DNA from: Paucibacter sp. KBW04
GTDB lineage: Bacteria; Pseudomonadota; Gammaproteobacteria; Burkholderiales; Burkholderiaceae_C
Assembly: GCF_003852425.1 (NCBI RefSeq)
Contig: NZ_QAJN01000015.1
Coordinates: forward strand, 62,001-126,000
Direction: 5' to 3'
Length of the DNA: 64,000 nucleotides
Position 1 is the first letter of the stretch, and each line of letters begins with the position of its first letter. Made by a program: the position numbers and the translations under genes. Shown here piece by piece: positions 4,836-44,582 of the stretch. Under the pieces are notes generated by a model, which had not been told where the DNA came from, did not search any database, and was given only the letters and a program-made list of their open reading frames with translations.

Positions 4836-5117
4836 GCCCCGATTGTCGCCGCAGCAGCGAACTTCGCCGCCGCCGGCCGAACATCCTGGCTTGCGCTCAA
4901 TAAATAACGTCTATTTGGCGCGTCATGACACAAGGGCAAGCGCCCCCACTTTGACTTAGGGGGTGGGCGGGTTTTCACGGGAATGTAAACAACTGTGAAT
5001 TGACTCCAATGAACTGCCCGCTCCGAGTTCATGCGTTTCCATCGAATGAAACAGCCACCTACCAAGGCTGGTCGGAGCAAGGACAAAAGCCTCAATCCAG
5101 TCCACGAGAGGAATCAT

Positions 5118-5837
5118 ATGTTTGCATCCAAGACCATTGCCCGTTTTGCCGTCCCCGCTCTGCTCGGATCGCTCGCCTTGGCGGGTACTGCTTCGGCCGC
5201 CAGCATGACCGAGGGCTTCGATTCGATGACGCCTGCTGGCTGGACCGTCAAGAACAACAGCGTGCCCTTGGGCTCCACCAGCTGGTTTCAAGGCACCACC
5301 TCTGTGTTCACCTCCCAGGCGGGTGCAGCCAACTCCTATGCCGGCGTCAACTACAACAGCACGGCAGGCGCAGGCGATATCAGCAACTGGCTGATTACCC
5401 CGACCATGAGTTTCAACAACGGTGATGTGGTGAGTTTCTACACCCGCACGGCCAGCGGCTCGATCTGGCCTGACGCCCTGGAACTGCGCTTCAGCGCCAC
5501 GGGCGGCACCAATGTGGGCAGCACCGCCACCAGCGTCGGCAGTTTCACCAATCTGCTGGTGAGCATCAACCCTGCACTGGACGCGGGCGGCTACCCTGAG
5601 GATTGGACGATGTACACGGCCACCATCAGCGGCCTGTCGGGCACCACCAATGGCGCGCTGGCGTTCCGTTACGTTGTGGCCGATGGTGGTCCCTCGGGCA
5701 ACAACTCCAACTACATCGGTATCGACACCTTCTCCATCACCGCCGCCGTGCCGGAGCCCGGCACCTACGCCCTGATGGGCCTGGGTCTCTTGGGCCTGGG
5801 TCTGCGTGCGCGCAGCAATAGCCGCAAAACCAAGTAG
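5118..5837 (+). CDS. PEP-CTERM sorting domain protein, choice-of-anchor J-like
   Basis: A 239-residue exported protein. A signal peptide (about residues 1-27, ending ASA) is followed by a beta-rich region (GFDSMTPAGWTVKNNS, then ISNWLITPTMSF) typical of choice-of-anchor J domains. The C-terminus has the PEP-CTERM signal: VPEPGTYALM, a hydrophobic helix and a basic tail (RARSNSRK). In known systems exosortase/archaeosortase enzymes process such tails for delivery to the envelope or biofilm matrix; no exosortase is in this window. The ATG at 5118 has GAGAGGA about 7 bases upstream. A strong terminator follows at 5864. Confidence 0.9.
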   Translation: MFASKTIARFAVPALLGSLALAGTASAASMTEGFDSMTPAGWTVKNNSVPLGSTSWFQGTTSVFTSQAGAANSYAGVNYNSTAGAGDISNWLITPTMSFNNGDVVSFYTRTASGSIWPDALELRFSATGGTNVGSTATSVGSFTNLLVSINPALDAGGYPEDWTMYTATISGLSGTTNGALAFRYVVADGGPSGNNSNYIGIDTFSITAAVPEPGTYALMGLGLLGLGLRARSNSRKTK

Positions 5838-5997: not shown

Positions 5998-6981
5998 ATG
6001 AAGCGTAGAACGATTCTGAGTGCCAGCGGCCTGAGCCTGCTGGCCGGCACACCGATGGCCAGCCTGGCCCAAAACAAGGCCAAAGCGGCACCCCCGCCGC
6101 CGCTGGACTTTTTGCGCCTGCTGGTGCCCGCCTCGCAAGGCGGTGGTTGGGACCAAACCGCCCGGGCCATGGGCGGCGCCCTGCAAGCCAGCAAGCTGGT
6201 CGACAAGGTGGAATATGAATACAAGCCCGGCAAGGGCGGTGTGCCCGGCCTGGCTTACTTCGTCGAGAAGTACGCCCGCCAGCCCAATACCCTGATGCTG
6301 GGGGGCATGGTCATGCTGGGCGCGATTGCGCTGAACCGCGCGCCCATCGATATGAGCCGGGTCACGCCGGTGGCCCGCCTGACCTCGGACGCCCTGGTCA
6401 TTCTGGTACCCAAGAACTCCAAGCTGCGCAGCCAGGCCGAGCTGAACGCCCGCATCCGCAGCGACGCCGCCTCGATCCGCTTCGGCGGTGGCAGCGCTGG
6501 CGGTGTGGACCATATGCTGATGGGCATGATAGGCCGCGCCCTGCAGGTGGACCCGACCAAGCTGCGCTACCAAGCCTTCTCGGGCGGCGGCGAGTTGGTG
6601 GCCGCCTTGCAAAAGGGTGAGCTGGATGTGGGCATCAGCGGCTACTCCGAGGCGATGGAAGCGATCAACAGCGGCGCGGTGCGTGGCCTGGCCATCTCCA
6701 GCCGGGCCGATGCGGCCGGCCTGCGCTCCTTGCGCAGCCAAGGTGTGGCCACCGACCTGGCCAATTGGCGCGGCGTCTTCGCCCCCCCGGGCCTGACGGC
6801 GGCCCAGACCGAGCGACTCACCCAGCTGGCCACGGCCTTGAACAGCAGCAGCGCCTGGACGGCCGAGTTGCAGAAGAATCGTTGGACCAATGCCTTCATG
6901 ACCGGCAAGCCTTTTGCCGAGTTGCTGGAGACCGAGCAAACCACCGCCCGCGTGGTCTTGCACCTGCTCAAGCTGGGCTGA
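5998..6981 (+). CDS. Bug family tripartite tricarboxylate transporter substrate-binding protein
   Basis: A 327-residue periplasmic binding protein. It has a signal peptide (MKRRTILSASGLSLLAGTP..., cleavage near residue 25), then FLRLLVPASQGGGWDQTARAM and VEYEYKPGKGGVPGLAYF, the two ligand-loop regions typical of TctC/Bug proteins. Bug proteins bind carboxylates, aromatic acids or amino acids and feed TctAB transporters. No TctA/TctB genes adjoin, which is common because these genes are heavily expanded and scattered in Burkholderiales. The ligand cannot be told from sequence. The ATG at 5998 places the signal peptide correctly. Confidence 0.88.
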   Translation: MKRRTILSASGLSLLAGTPMASLAQNKAKAAPPPPLDFLRLLVPASQGGGWDQTARAMGGALQASKLVDKVEYEYKPGKGGVPGLAYFVEKYARQPNTLMLGGMVMLGAIALNRAPIDMSRVTPVARLTSDALVILVPKNSKLRSQAELNARIRSDAASIRFGGGSAGGVDHMLMGMIGRALQVDPTKLRYQAFSGGGELVAALQKGELDVGISGYSEAMEAINSGAVRGLAISSRADAAGLRSLRSQGVATDLANWRGVFAPPGLTAAQTERLTQLATALNSSSAWTAELQKNRWTNAFMTGKPFAELLETEQTTARVVLHLLKLG

Positions 6982-6992
6982 TTGAAGGAAAA

Positions 6993-7017
6993 AGCCGGGC
7001 TTCCGGGCTGCTTCTTA
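6993..7017 (+). terminator. Possible terminator after the Bug gene
   Basis: AGCCGG, loop GCTT, CCGGGCT (with one bulged G), then CTTCTTATT, 11 bases after the Bug stop codon. The stem is short and the T tract is interrupted, so this is tentative. Confidence 0.42.
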
Positions 7018-7020
7018 TTC

Positions 7021-7171
7021 GGGCAAGCCAGCGCAAGGCCGATGAACAGGGGCTTTTCGGCCCCCTCTCCAAGCCCCATCCCCAAGCTTGCCCACAGGCT
7101 CTGTGGACAGAGCCAAACCCGCTTGCGCGATAGTCGCCCAACAAGGGGCGACAGCCGCCCTTCATCGGGCG
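7021..7171. repeat. Structured repeat unit 1
   Basis: Left core GATGAACAGGGGC begins at 7041. Palindrome CCACAG-GCT-CTGTGG is at 7092-7106. Second hairpin GTCGCCC/GGGCGAC pairs 7133-7139 with 7146-7152. A third, CGCCC/GGGCG, pairs 7156-7160 with 7167-7171. Confidence 0.82.
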
Positions 7172-7265
7172 ATTGGCAATCGCAGTCGCCTCAATTTTCA
7201 GCAAGGTAAGCCCTGCGACCAGACCCCAAACAAACGTCACCGGCGCGAAGCTGCGCTTTGCCTTC

Positions 7266-7402
7266 ATTTGAAGCAAGCCAGGGAATCGGCGATGAATAGG
7301 GCGCCCTACAACAATCTCCAAGGGACATCCCTAACCTTGCCCACAGGCACTGTGGACATCACTCCGGCACATCAAGTGCGCCTATCGCCCAAGCTAGGGC
7401 GA
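7266..7402. repeat. Structured repeat unit 2
   Basis: Left core AAGCAAGCCAGGGAATC then GATGAATAGGGC. Palindrome CCACAG-GCA-CTGTGG at 7341-7355. Second hairpin TCGCCC/GGGCGA pairs 7385-7390 with 7397-7402 around a 6-base loop. Confidence 0.82.
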
Positions 7403-7544
7403 ATGTCGCACCCGCAAGACCTGACCCCAACAATCCACCGCCTCTTGCGCTGCTGCGTTTTTACGCGAATCTAAGTCAGTCACGCTTGTCCACAGCGGCC
7501 CCTGAGGCCCGATCTACCCACCAGCGAGCTCACTGCCCAAAATT

Positions 7545-7696
7545 CCAGCAAGCCAGGGAAATCACGATGGATAGGGGCATCTGCGACACACTCCAAGGCC
7601 CGTCCCCAAACTTACCCACAGCGACTGTGGACATAAAGACCCAAAGCTTGCGCGATAAGCGCCCCATACGGGGCGACAACCGCCCCAGGTCGGGCG
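7545..7696. repeat. Structured repeat unit 3
   Basis: Left core CAGCAAGCCAGGGAAATC then GATGGATAGGGGC. Palindrome CCACAG-CGA-CTGTGG at 7616-7630. Second hairpin CGCCCC/GGGGCG pairs 7660-7665 with 7670-7675. A further CGCCC/GGGCG pair is at 7681-7696. The stretch TTGCGCGAT before the second hairpin is shared with unit 1. Confidence 0.82.
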
Positions 7697-7849
7697 CTGC
7701 TCGCGCAAATCGGGAAACTTAGTCCACAAGAGCCGGGCGAGGCATGCAACCCCCTGGCGGACATGCTGCAAAAACAGGCAGCGCTTCAGCGCGCGAGGAC
7801 TCAGGCCCCATGTGGCTCAATTTTCAGACGCCCAAGCGGCCTGCCCGCA

Positions 7850-7979
7850 TTTGATGCAGGCCAGGGAATCATCGATGGGCAGGGGCTTCTGAGCGATTCC
7901 CACACACGCGTCCCCAAACTTGCCCACAGCCTCTGTGGACAGACACAACGCCGAGCGAGGACGATTTCAATTGAAATCG
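7850..7979. repeat. Structured repeat unit 4
   Basis: Left core GCAGGCCAGGGAATC then GATGGGCAGGGGCTT. Palindrome CCACAG-CCT-CTGTGG at 7924-7938. In place of the GC-rich second hairpin is an unrelated perfect 18-base palindrome, CGATTTCAATTGAAATCG, at 7962-7979. Confidence 0.8.
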
Positions 7980-8174
7980 ACGCTTTTGCGCGCACAGCGC
8001 ACCTTCCGATGCCTGGCCTCCCGAGTGCCATCGCCAGACCGCTGTTCGAGCGAGTCAAACGGCAGGAAATGGCTGCGGCACTGGCCGGATTGGGGGCTGG
8101 CGCGTGAGCCGCGCGCGCTACATGGGCGTCAAAAACAAACGCAATTCGGCCGCGGCCCGGTCGGCTGCCGCATA

Positions 8175-8307
8175 TTCAAGCAAGGCGTTGGCGAGCCCAT
8201 GAACAGGGGCTTGGGCGCGATTCCATCGCAACACTCCCCAAGCTTGCCCACAGGCACTGTGGGCAAAGCGACTCTGAATCTGCGCGCCTGCCGCCCCGCC
8301 AAGGGCG
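8175..8307. repeat. Structured repeat unit 5
   Basis: Left core TTCAAGCAAGGCG then CATGAACAGGGGCTT. Palindrome CCACAG-GCA-CTGTGG at 8248-8262, here followed by GCA rather than ACA. Second inverted repeat CGCCC/GGGCG pairs 8292-8296 with 8303-8307. Confidence 0.8.
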
Positions 8308-8538
8308 ATTCACGCACTAGGTGAATCCTGCGCAAGCAGGGCTGAGCGAGTGGGAGCGCCCGGGTTCTGAGGCCGGTCCAAGGCCAGGCAGTTGGATGCC
8401 CAAACCAGGCATGCCCGACGCGGGCGGGACTTGTTCGGCCCTGCTCTAAGCCTCCCTATACTGGGCCGGCCCGTCCATCCTGACGGGGCCAGAACCTGAG
8501 CTTTGAAGCCAAACGATCCCTATCCGCGGAGTCCATTG

Positions 8539-11367
8539 ATGCGCCTGAGAACCACCTCGTACCTGATTGCTGCTGCCCTGGGCAGCTTGGCCCTTTACCC
8601 TGCCGCCAGCGCCTGGGCGCAAACCAGCCCGGCAGTGGCCAAGGCCGCCGCCCCTGTCGCCGCCGCAGCGGCACAGAAGACGCAAAAGCATGCGACGGTG
8701 GAAGGCATCACCGAGTACCGCCTGGCCAACGGCCTGCGCGTTTTGCTGGCCCCCGATGCCTCCAAGCCCACCACCACGGTCAACATCACCTATCTGGTCG
8801 GCAGCCGCCACGAGAACTATGGCGAGACCGGCATGGCCCACCTGCTGGAACATATGGTGTTCAAGGGCACGCCCTCGCGCGGCAACATCATGCAAGAGCT
8901 GGGCAAGCGCGGCATGCAGTTCAACGGCACCACGTTTTACGACCGCACCAATTATTTCGAGACCTTCCCGGCCAGCGAAGAAAACCTGACTTGGGCGCTG
9001 GAGATGGAAGCCGACCGCATGGTCAATAGCTATGTCGCCCGCAAGGATCTGGAGACCGAGTTCTCCGTCGTGCGCAATGAGATGGAGTCGGGCGAGAACA
9101 ACCCACAGCGCTCGCTGTGGCAAGCCATGGCGGCCACCGCCTACGACTGGCATAACTACGGCAAGAGCACCATCGGCGCGCGCACCGACGTCGAAGGCGT
9201 CAAGATCGAGAATCTGCAAGCCTTCTACCGCGCCCACTACCAGCCCGATAACGCGGTGCTGCTGGTGTCCGGCAAGTTCGATGCGGCCAAGACCTTGGCC
9301 CAGATCGAGCAGGTGTTCGGCGCCATCCCGCGCCCGACGCGCCAGCTGCAGCCCACCTACACCCTGGACCCGGTGCAAAACGGCGCCCGCGAGGTCAGCG
9401 TGAATCGCGTCGGCGACACCCAGCTGGCCGCCGTGCTGTATCACACGCCCGCGTCCAGCCATGCCGATTCGGCCGCCGTGGCTGCGCTGGCCGAGATCCT
9501 GGGCAACTCGCCCAATGGCCGCCTGCACAAGCTGCTGGTGGAAGGCAAGAAGGCCGTCTCGGTCGCCCCATGGAACTTCGAGCTGGCCGAGCCGGGCTAC
9601 CTGATGTTCATGGCCGAACTGGGCAAGGACCAGAAGCTGGCCGAGGCCCGCAAGGCCTTGCAGGACGCGCTGGAAAACCTCAAGAAGAACCCCATCACCG
9701 AGGCCGAACTCAAGCGCGCCAAGGCCAGCTGGCTGAGCGACTTCGACAAGACCTTGAACGACCCGCAACGCCTGGGCGTGCAGCTGTCCGAGTCCATCGC
9801 CTCCGGCGACTGGCGCCTGTTCTTCCTGGCCCGTGACCGCATGGAAGCACTGACCGTCAAAGACGTGCAGCGCGTGGCTGAGAACTACTTCAAGGAAAGC
9901 AACCGCACCTACGGCCAGTTCGTGCCGACCAAGGCGCCGGATCGCGCCGTGCTGCCCGCGCCGGTCGATGTGGCCAAGCTGGTGGAAGGCTACCAAGGCC
10001 GTGCCGCCGTGGCCGAGGGCGAGAACTTCGACGTCAGCCCCGCCAATATCGACAAGCGCACCCTGCGTACCGCCCTGCCCAATGGCATGAAGCTGGCCCT
10101 GACGGCCAAGAAGACCCGGGGCGAGACCGTGCAAGGCGTGCTGCGCCTGGACTTCGGCGATGCCAAGAGCCTGTTCGGCCAAGCCACCGCCTCCGGCCTC
10201 ACCGCCGAGCTGCTGAGCCGCGGCACGGCCAAGCTGAGCCGCGCCGAGCTGGCCGCCAAGCTGGACGAGTTGAAGGCCCGCCTGAACGTCTCGGGCTCGG
10301 GCCAGAGCGTCAACGTGCAGTTCGACACCGTGCGCAAAAACCTGCCCGCCCTGCTAGAACTGCTGCGCGATGTGCTGCGCACGCCCAGCTTCCCGGCCCA
10401 GGAATTCGAGCTGGCGGTGAAGGAAAGCCTGACCGCCATCGACGCCCAGCGCAGCGAGCCGCAAGCCCTGGCCTCGCAGGCCTTGAGCAAGGCCCGCGAC
10501 GTCTACCCAAAGGGTGATGTGCGGGCCTTCCAAAGCTTTGACGAGAGCGCCGCTCAGCTCAAGGCTTTGAAGCTGGAAGATGTGAAGCGCTTCTGGAGCC
10601 AGTTCTACGGTGCCGACAATGCCAAGCTGGCCCTGGTGGGCGACTTCGACAACGCCGAGGTGCAAGCCCAGCTCAAGACCCTGTTCGGCGACTGGAAGAG
10701 CAAGAGCAAATACGCCCGTCTGAGCAGCGAGTCGGCCCCGGCCAAGCCCGGCGCCATCCAGCTGGAAGCGCCCGACAAGGCCAATGCCTTCTACATCGCC
10801 CTGCTGCCGCTGACGCTGAAGGACGACGCCCCCGACTATGTGCCCCTGGCCATCGTCAACAAGGTGCTGGGCGGCGGCGTCAAGTCGCGTCTGCTGGACC
10901 GTCTGCGCCAAAAAGAAGGCATCAGCTATGGGGCAGGCAGCCAGCTGAGCGCCGGCAGCTTTGAGCCCGTGGGCGCCGAGATTCTGTTCGCCATCTACGC
11001 GCCGCAGAACCTGGAGCGCCTGAAGACCGGCGTTAGCGAAGAGCTGAGCCGCCTGGTCAAGGACGGCATCAGCGAGACCGAGTTGGTGGACGCCAAAAAG
11101 GCCTTGCTGGAGCAACTCAAGATTGGCCGCGCCCAGGACGTCGCCCTGGCCGCCGGCCTGGTGAGTCAGCTGCACACCGGCCGCACCATGGCATTCACCG
11201 CGGAGCGCGAGGCGCAGATCGAGAAGATCACGTTGGACGAGGTCAACAAGACCCTGCGCCGCGCGATTGACCCGGCCCAGTTCCTGCACATCTACGCGGG
11301 TGACTTCGCTGGTGCGGCGAAGAAGGCGGCGGAGGCTGCGGCTGCTGCAGCGCCCGCCAAGCCTTGA
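8539..11367 (+). CDS. M16 family zinc metallopeptidase, two-domain
   Basis: A 942-residue protein with a signal peptide (MRLRTTSYLIAAALGSLAL..., cleavage near AWA), so probably periplasmic. The N-terminal half carries the inverted zinc motif HLLEH (residues 101-105) in GMAHLLEHMVFKGTP, followed by VRNEMESGENNP with the distal glutamate. The C-terminal half has the M16 fold, but its equivalent position reads ASGLTAELLSRGT and lacks the zinc ligands. This active-plus-inactive arrangement is normal for pitrilysin-like and PqqL-like peptidases, which degrade peptides inside a clam-shell cavity. The ATG at 8539 has GCGGAG upstream and gives an intact signal peptide. A terminator follows. Confidence 0.92.
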   Translation: MRLRTTSYLIAAALGSLALYPAASAWAQTSPAVAKAAAPVAAAAAQKTQKHATVEGITEYRLANGLRVLLAPDASKPTTTVNITYLVGSRHENYGETGMAHLLEHMVFKGTPSRGNIMQELGKRGMQFNGTTFYDRTNYFETFPASEENLTWALEMEADRMVNSYVARKDLETEFSVVRNEMESGENNPQRSLWQAMAATAYDWHNYGKSTIGARTDVEGVKIENLQAFYRAHYQPDNAVLLVSGKFDAAKTLAQIEQVFGAIPRPTRQLQPTYTLDPVQNGAREVSVNRVGDTQLAAVLYHTPASSHADSAAVAALAEILGNSPNGRLHKLLVEGKKAVSVAPWNFELAEPGYLMFMAELGKDQKLAEARKALQDALENLKKNPITEAELKRAKASWLSDFDKTLNDPQRLGVQLSESIASGDWRLFFLARDRMEALTVKDVQRVAENYFKESNRTYGQFVPTKAPDRAVLPAPVDVAKLVEGYQGRAAVAEGENFDVSPANIDKRTLRTALPNGMKLALTAKKTRGETVQGVLRLDFGDAKSLFGQATASGLTAELLSRGTAKLSRAELAAKLDELKARLNVSGSGQSVNVQFDTVRKNLPALLELLRDVLRTPSFPAQEFELAVKESLTAIDAQRSEPQALASQALSKARDVYPKGDVRAFQSFDESAAQLKALKLEDVKRFWSQFYGADNAKLALVGDFDNAEVQAQLKTLFGDWKSKSKYARLSSESAPAKPGAIQLEAPDKANAFYIALLPLTLKDDAPDYVPLAIVNKVLGGGVKSRLLDRLRQKEGISYGAGSQLSAGSFEPVGAEILFAIYAPQNLERLKTGVSEELSRLVKDGISETELVDAKKALLEQLKIGRAQDVALAAGLVSQLHTGRTMAFTAEREAQIEKITLDEVNKTLRRAIDPAQFLHIYAGDFAGAAKKAAEAAAAAAPAKP

Positions 11368-44233: not shown

Positions 44234-44289
44234 GGCGGACCTCAAATTTCGGGGGGCCGCGCGCTCACCGCGACCCAGACAAAGGGATT

Positions 44290-44374
44290 CGGTGAGCGTC
44301 GTTGCTGGGCGGCACCCACGGTGCCTGCCCTTGTTCAAGCCTGGCTCACCCGGGGGTGAGTCGCAACGCTCCTT
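44290..44374 (-). promoter_or_regulatory. S-adenosylhomocysteine (SAH) riboswitch
   Basis: The minus-strand leader of the large metH gene has GGAGCGTTGCGACTCACC, then GGTGAGCCAGGCTTG, then GCAACGACGCTCACC. GAGCG pairs with CGCTC and TTGC with GCAA (P1), CTCACC with GGTGAG (P2), and GGCACC/GGTGCC forms an extra hairpin. The CCAGGCTTG core and the order of elements match the known SAH riboswitch found upstream of SAH-recycling genes in beta- and gammaproteobacteria. It lies about 57 bases before the ATG and should turn expression on when SAH accumulates. Confidence 0.88.
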
Positions 44375-44582
44375 GAACCAGACGCCGATTTTATGCTCAG
44401 CGCGGCCCAAAGCTGCGGCTAAGTCAGCGCTAATCCGGCCCTAATCCTCAAGCTGTGCAGCGCAAAGGCCGACAATCTATCGGTGATCATGGCTTGTCGG
44501 CCTGGATCGCGTACAAAGCCACCACCGTTACACCCCAAGGGCTGCCCCAGGCCCGTCTTCCCTTTGCCACTGCGAGCTCGAT

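Follow-up and report, generated by a model that had tools for sequence, protein, structure and literature searches.

The cores of DARS1 and DARS2 are described, in an excerpt of PMC5742627, as containing three DnaA boxes with equal spacing in the two sites, box I being opposed to boxes II and III, and the same excerpt reports that the essential boxes of datA share one direction and are accompanied by one IHF site (PMC5742627). Regarding their distribution, the arrangement of DARS2 was described as highly conserved in beta- or gamma-proteobacteria proximal to Escherichia coli (excerpt of PMC5742627), its core was placed among gamma-proteobacteria related to E. coli (excerpt of PMC4245941), and DARS1/2-like sequences were reported to be conserved in many proteobacteria (excerpt of PMC10380432). 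In the open-licence literature, we found neither a multi-copy tandem DARS array nor DARS-like modules preceding minC, and no description of DnaA boxes from Roseateles. To our knowledge, DARS activity has been tested in E. coli only. DARS sites as such are already known, and the five-copy array described here looks like a new variant of them.

Two triplets of E. coli MG1655, one in the bioD-uvrB region and the other in the rppH-mutH region, carry boxes at offsets 0 (+), 14 (-), and 26 (-); from their location and their layout we take them to be DARS1 and DARS2, respectively. Read from the opposite strand, this layout is found in each unit of an array located in a 64-kb window (the whole stretch of DNA analyzed, C7:62001-126000) of the genome of Paucibacter sp. 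KBW04 (G000, the source genome; 5.6 Mb in 32 contigs). The non-coding stretch at 7006-8268, between the gene of a Bug-type receptor upstream (5998..6981, + strand) and that of an M16 peptidase downstream (8539..11367, + strand), holds five direct units on the + strand; both gene names were taken from the preliminary description, and the M16 gene was used as synteny marker. As had been announced (five copies at intervals of 249-324), the start-to-start distances are 249, 275, 308, and 324 bp, the unit measuring about 107 bp instead of the roughly 130 bases first estimated. The palindrome CCACAG-NNN-CTGTGG, reported as invariant, is present in all five units with the centers given for it (GCT, GCA, CGA, CCT, and GCA), and the sequence proposed to surround it was correct in general, with the exceptions of unit 3, which has CTTACCCACAG, and unit 5, which has CTGTGGGCA. 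The upstream box mentioned there is present as well but varies (GATGAACAGGGGC, GATGAATAGGGCG, GATGGATAGGGGC, GATGGGCAGGGGC, and CATGAACAGGGGC), and the list of conserved parts holds but was incomplete, since a TGC-N11-GCA upstream box, starting 66-67 bp 5' of the core, and a TCCCCA preceding the left arm of the palindrome (units 1, 3, 4, and 5; TCCCTA in unit 2) are also kept. A middle box, GATGRAYAGGGGC, is common to the units, with exceptions. Distances between the conserved boxes are constant across units, save for one extra base in unit 1. When the palindrome YCCACAGNNNCTGTGGRC was searched with at most one mismatch in all contigs of the source genome, only the five array sites were recovered, and the backwards palindrome used as a control gave two forward matches and one reverse match.

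On a light judgment, coding was set aside as an explanation of the units, as mechanical ORFs cross them in different frames and the spacings 275 and 308 are not multiples of three, and so were CRISPR and IS elements, given that the palindrome occurs at one place in the genome. In another part of the window, at 44287-44380 on the minus strand, a SAH riboswitch (Rfam RF01057) was detected with 53.3 bits vs a gathering score of 37.

The palindrome corresponds to two opposed DnaA-like boxes, II and I, whose starts are 14 bp apart in the five units. The left arm, box II, is TTGCCCACA in four units and TTACCCACA in unit 3, and the right arm, box I, reads nTGTCCACA on the other strand (TTGCCCACA in unit 5). 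Box III is a 9-mer whose last six bases are TCCCCA (TCCCTA in unit 2); it runs in the same direction as box II and starts 12 bp upstream of it. In unit 1 (7006..7112, +) the upstream TGC-GCA box is at 7009-7025, the middle box at 7041-7053, box III (CCATCCCCA) at 7076-7084, box II (TTGCCCACA) at 7088-7096, and box I, on the complement strand, at 7102-7110. The same elements are located, in this order, at 7259-7275, 7291-7303, 7325-7333 (ACATCCCTA), 7337-7345 (TTGCCCACA), and 7351-7359 in unit 2 (7255..7361, +); at 7534-7550, 7566-7578, 7600-7608 (CCGTCCCCA), 7612-7620 (TTACCCACA), and 7626-7634 in unit 3 (7530..7636, +); at 7842-7858, 7874-7886, 7908-7916 (GCGTCCCCA), 7920-7928 (TTGCCCACA), and 7934-7942 in unit 4 (7838..7944, +); and at 8166-8182, 8198-8210, 8232-8240 (CACTCCCCA), 8244-8252 (TTGCCCACA), and 8258-8266 in unit 5 (8162..8268, +). 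Between units 2 and 3 there is a lone DnaA-like box, TTGTCCACA (7486..7494, +), identical in the array of Roseateles oligotrophus.

Each unit thus contains a core of three predicted DnaA boxes in which I is opposed to II and III and the starts are separated by 14 and 12 bp, the spacing of DARS1 and DARS2, although the boxes are imperfect: in the five units, box II matches TTATCCACA at 7-8 of 9 positions, box I at 7 and box III at 5-6, and none of the triplet boxes of the array is a perfect TTATCCACA. The CCACA of the consensus is replaced by CCCCA or CCCTA in box III, so that affinity for DnaA may be low; binding of DnaA would call for boxes close to TTWTNCACA. The preliminary description had considered that the array fits no known feature type, which does not apply, as it has the layout of DARS cores, an established type of DnaA-box cluster; a protein-binding array or chromosome-organizing site had rightly been listed there among the possible roles. 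As for a match to a described repeat family, also envisaged there, the layout coincides with a described kind of regulatory site and the sequence with no repeat family.

Several observations bear on the specificity of this layout. For 16 type-A units chosen by hand, the mean match to TTATCCACA was highest, at 5.44 of 9, for a start 12 bp upstream, 10 bp coming second with 4.56, and on the other strand it peaked with 6.94 of 9 at +14, the background of the profile having a mean of 2.08 and a s.d. of 1.28; the 12 type-B units, also selected by hand, were taken from L204, L205, L207, L209, L213, and L216, and L206, L208, L210, L211, L212, L214, and L215 were left out. Twelve of the 29 matches to TTRTCCACA (one mismatch allowed) found in the window lie at 7088-8266, and shuffles of the whole window contained 10.95 matches on average and 20 at most. 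At a triplet score of at least 19, the 12/14 layout occurs at five positions of the window, which are the five units, and 71 other layouts occur at 0-2 positions each; in 100 first-order Markov simulations of the window the 12/14 layout gave a mean of 0.03 and a maximum of 1. The cut-off of 19 (box II at least 6) was chosen after the units had been seen, so that the order-level survey described below carries more weight. In 20 sampled stretches (400 kb) of a related genome, G007, there was one triplet-score match. The family loci scored for triplets had entered through model R1 (see below) and their geometry is therefore not independent; L212, L214, L216, and others were absent from them.

Among the described systems, DARS1 is the closest to the array, with which it shares the three-box core (box I opposite in direction to the other two, starts 14 and 12 bp apart) and an imperfect box III. 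In the DARS1 stretch (L244 1941-2299) no exact or one-mismatch IHF consensus site was detected, which was counted as a further likeness. Conversely, DARS1 is present in one copy and the array has five, and box II is a consensus box in E. coli DARS1 but matches at 7-8 of 9 positions in the array. The string of the array's middle box, GGATAGGGGC, occurs beside DARS1 (L244 2089-2098) on the box I side, the opposite side of the core from the array; this could be chance, and no homology of the flanks was established.

The core layout is also that of DARS2, and the triplets found near minC in the source genome resemble this site in having four exact sites for the IHF consensus WATCARNNNNTTR (L204 5000-6200). 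By contrast, a blunt scan of the array (6980-8540, 1.56 kb) gave no exact and one one-mismatch match to WATCARNNNNTTR. As the E. coli DARS2 stretch itself has four one-mismatch and no exact matches to the stricter WATCAANNNNTTR, the difference between the array and the minC triplets is real but blunt, and the scarcity of predicted IHF sites would speak only weakly against a DARS2-type site. The Fis consensus was too permissive to be of use, its matches being far too frequent in this DNA; a Fis homolog (42% over 76 aa) is encoded in the source genome. The array resembles datA as a chromosomal DnaA-box cluster outside oriC and in that the boxes II of its five successive units face one way, but in each unit the two boxes closest to consensus point in opposite directions, and the IHF scan gave no exact site. 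With oriC it has DnaA boxes in common; it lies on contig C7 and dnaA on C31, so it is not an origin-type cluster at dnaA.

The DnaA protein of the source genome has the E. coli residue at 10 of 10 positions checked (285, 290, 399, 407, 408, and 432-436), which include residues taken to contact DNA. In domain IV, 55 of 94 residues are identical to those of E. coli DnaA. Of the positions checked, R285 and L290 are stated to matter for DnaA-DnaA contacts (excerpt of PMC5742627).

In the order-level survey, the DARS-layout pattern with two mismatches allowed was found in 121 of 200 Burkholderiales genomes, the source genome included, and neither the backwards pattern nor one with both gaps one base longer (a single altered layout) was found in any of the 200. 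When the gaps were left free (1-13 and 0-9), 26 matches were obtained in 25 of 399 genomes and 13 of 165 genera, and in 25 of these both gaps equal those of E. coli (6 and 3), the odd one being that of G175 (5 and 3); one of the matches is the minC site of the source genome. These patterns were written after the minC site and E. coli had been inspected, and the genomes surveyed are related, hence the counts do not represent independent events. With stricter filters, a search at E 1e-5 recovered 10 genomes out of 150. Another family has tandem pairs, spaced by 275-276 bp, in three of its genomes (G186, G153, and G216). None of the DARS-layout matches listed for the 16 genomes in which dnaA was located adjoins this gene; examples of the distance are 67 kb (G324), 92 kb (G041), and 135 kb (G172), which may differ with the way taken around the circle. 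In these 16 genomes dnaA was located by best match, none of them above the model cut-off and each with a best E of 2.3e-86 or lower.

At the minC site of the source genome (contig C6) there are three triplets (L204 5052, 5347, and 5622; span 5052-5656). They are in tandem, about 276 bp apart, and two to three such triplets also occur in L205, L207, L209, and others; in 13 of the 18 Roseateles genomes, weaker R1 matches pair up about 274-317 bp apart. The neighbor was identified as minC in two genomes, from Pfam in G007 and by tblastn in the source genome, and in both a methionyl-tRNA synthetase gene is located on the other side of the paired triplets. The better unit of each pair approximates TTGTCCACA-AAG-TTATCCACA-GNNNN-GTGGATAG, a near-consensus DARS core. 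A further triplet with a common context (GCACGGACTTGTCCACAG in the printed cases) was observed in several Roseateles genomes as well as in G024 and G486 (L205 10179, L207 10883, L208 9226, L342 7705, and L343 7447), at a distance of 3-5 kb from the pairs. Other genera also have sets of three triplets, each set confined to a single strand, namely in G528 (L335 4590, 5265, and 5563) and in G440 (L341 3971, 4364, and 5222), the latter surrounded by hemE-like and priA-like genes (named by eye). Concerning a shared gene context, only the source minC locus matched among 53 order-level loci (L246-L298, 1.5 kb flanks, part of all matches) searched by tblastn with MinC, MetG, BioD, UvrB, YbhK, PtsP, RppH, MutH, ThyA (fragment), and Lgt, and with M16, Bug, FNR-like, and TonB-like proteins.

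The distribution of the units among close relatives was followed with model R1, built from 12 units (five from the source genome, five from R. oligotrophus G009, and one each from G007 and G015), which match it because the model was built from them. Among 18 Roseateles genomes, strong units number five in the source genome, five in R. oligotrophus, three in G007, and three in G015, and single weaker units were found in G005 (E 5.8e-9) and G004 (E 1.7e-6). The five-unit array is present in 2 of the 18, implying that the genus does not need it. In R. oligotrophus the five units are at the same place, next to an M16 protein 94% identical to that of the window, so that the array is not absent or scrambled in all relatives, the outcome that had been named as arguing against a selected element. 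Comparison of the two arrays, in which the second sequence carried about 110 extra 5' bases, revealed a graded conservation: boxes II (45/45) and I (45/45) are identical, followed by box III (43/45), the upstream boxes (75/85), the middle boxes (57/65), the core spacers (34/40), and the remaining bases of the units (153/181), with 206 of 300 identical positions in the 60 bp downstream of the units and 398 of 751 (53%, 86 gapped) in the inter-unit DNA. The earlier impression of a selected element is borne out by boxes II and I (90/90 vs 53% between units), and selection would be the natural reading of this contrast.

In G007, a single contig in which the GC skew of 20-kb samples flips sign close to dnaA and again roughly across from it, the three units are scattered, at 27%, 41%, and 81% of the half chromosome from dnaA. 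The first of these is flanked by Bug and ABC-F genes, with the M16 gene about 6.5 kb away; its ABC-F/Bug/M16 neighborhood and relative orientation are those of the window array, on the opposite side of Bug. Another unit is located between ferredoxin reductase-like and TonB receptor-like genes (named by eye). In the 1.5 kb upstream of the M16 gene of G007 and G015 there were no DnaA-like boxes of the kind scanned. The units of these relatives and the shared neighborhood point to local amplification of a resident module, and we infer that the array arose in this way from a module at home in the ABC-F/Bug/M16 neighborhood; its independent gain is a possible alternative.

R. oligotrophus and G031, a genome of another genus, share a stretch of near-identity that surrounds a related palindrome (L171 and L172) and is perhaps a mobile segment. 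The G031 palindrome is almost opposite dnaA, but a terminus-type site was rejected given that it belongs to this shared stretch and that the other positions do not fit.

Layout, specificity, conservation and the related triplets upstream of minC being computational observations, the reading that we favor, and hold to be moderately probable, is that the array is a locally amplified, DARS1-like set of weak predicted DnaA boxes that would recharge or titrate DnaA; membership in DARS is supported, at the level of sequence, by the layout. It is quite likely that DnaA binds the array. In the proposed mechanism, each unit would act as a DnaA-box triplet (III and II co-oriented with starts 12 bp apart, I opposed and 14 bp on) on which DnaA would occupy boxes II and I head-to-head, as well as the weak box III adjoining II. 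In analogy to DARS1, bound ADP would be loosened in this head-to-head complex, and DnaA would then leave empty and recharge with ATP. Five weak tandem copies might respond to the level of DnaA and offer more capacity than a single copy. Given binding, we lean slightly toward nucleotide exchange, rather than plain titration, as the effect, again by analogy. Points against the DARS reading are the imperfect boxes, the unexplained middle box GATGRAYAGGGGC and the presence of the array in 2 of 18 Roseateles genomes.

The main rival is titration, in which the triplets and the lone box would act purely as a DnaA sink, delaying initiation but leaving the bound nucleotide unexchanged. The concentration in the array of 12 of the 29 TTRTCCACA matches of the window and the variable number of strong units among relatives (5, 5, 3, and 3) are what such a sink could look like; yet a sink needs no fixed 12/14 layout, which is kept across the order, and the boxes of the array are weak, and we regard titration as rather unlikely. 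Some features could instead reflect another dimeric protein with a half-site resembling a DnaA box, namely the nearly two-fold symmetry of the palindrome, the uniform departure from consensus (box II is TTGCCCACA in four of five units) and a middle box that is not a DnaA box. However, homologous units elsewhere have the consensus TTATCCACA in the same register, and the one-sided third box at DARS spacing breaks the symmetry, which makes this explanation improbable.

The position of the array, upstream of the M16 gene on the same strand, together with the related triplets that precede minC in the source genome and G007, would be compatible with an operator region for DnaA-dependent control of a neighboring gene (the M16 peptidase), a reading that is very improbable since the G007 unit between Bug and ABC-F is about 6.5 kb from M16, the units of other relatives adjoin unrelated genes, and no sigma-70 promoter-like site was detected in 6950-8560 (shuffle mean 0.4). 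Two terminator-like sites occur in this interval (shuffle mean 2.3), and no Rfam family reached its gathering threshold in the array region, where there was one chance-level match (E 0.48). Inverted repeats of varying sequence (e.g., TCGCCC/GGGCGA, GATTTCAATTGAAATC) are found about 20-35 bp 3' of each unit. The downstream 60-mers fold at z below -2 vs shuffles in four of five source units but in one of five from R. oligotrophus and one of nine others, and nothing is claimed for these repeats. Tandem small RNA genes, suggested in the preliminary description and favored by the intergenic, tandem units and the folds in the source genome, are hardly credible considering the scarcity of such folds in the other units, terminators at shuffle level, and the lack of promoter-like sites and of Rfam matches at gathering threshold in the array.

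Returning to the DARS-type reading, the array, the minC triplets and the order-level matches could tentatively be brought together, at somewhat less than an even chance, in a distinct class of DnaA-recharging modules carried by Burkholderiales, with a fixed unit of about 107 bp (upstream box, middle box and DARS-layout triplet) whose copy number would tune replication by lineage. Within this proposal, the middle box would be of IHF type or a diverged GATGRAYAGGGGC, the modules would range from single dispersed units to tandems of 2, 3 or 5, including the minC cluster, and the Roseateles array would represent a five-cylinder DnaA reactivator in which the IHF sites were given up.

The array is a possible replication control element present in several copies, and the triplets upstream of minC hint at a link between the control of replication and of division. 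With their weak boxes and small natural differences, its five copies would provide a test series for the boxes and flanks needed in DnaA recharging. If the modules work, the exact DARS spacing would have been retained well beyond the enterics, and module number would constitute an evolvable dial on replication timing.
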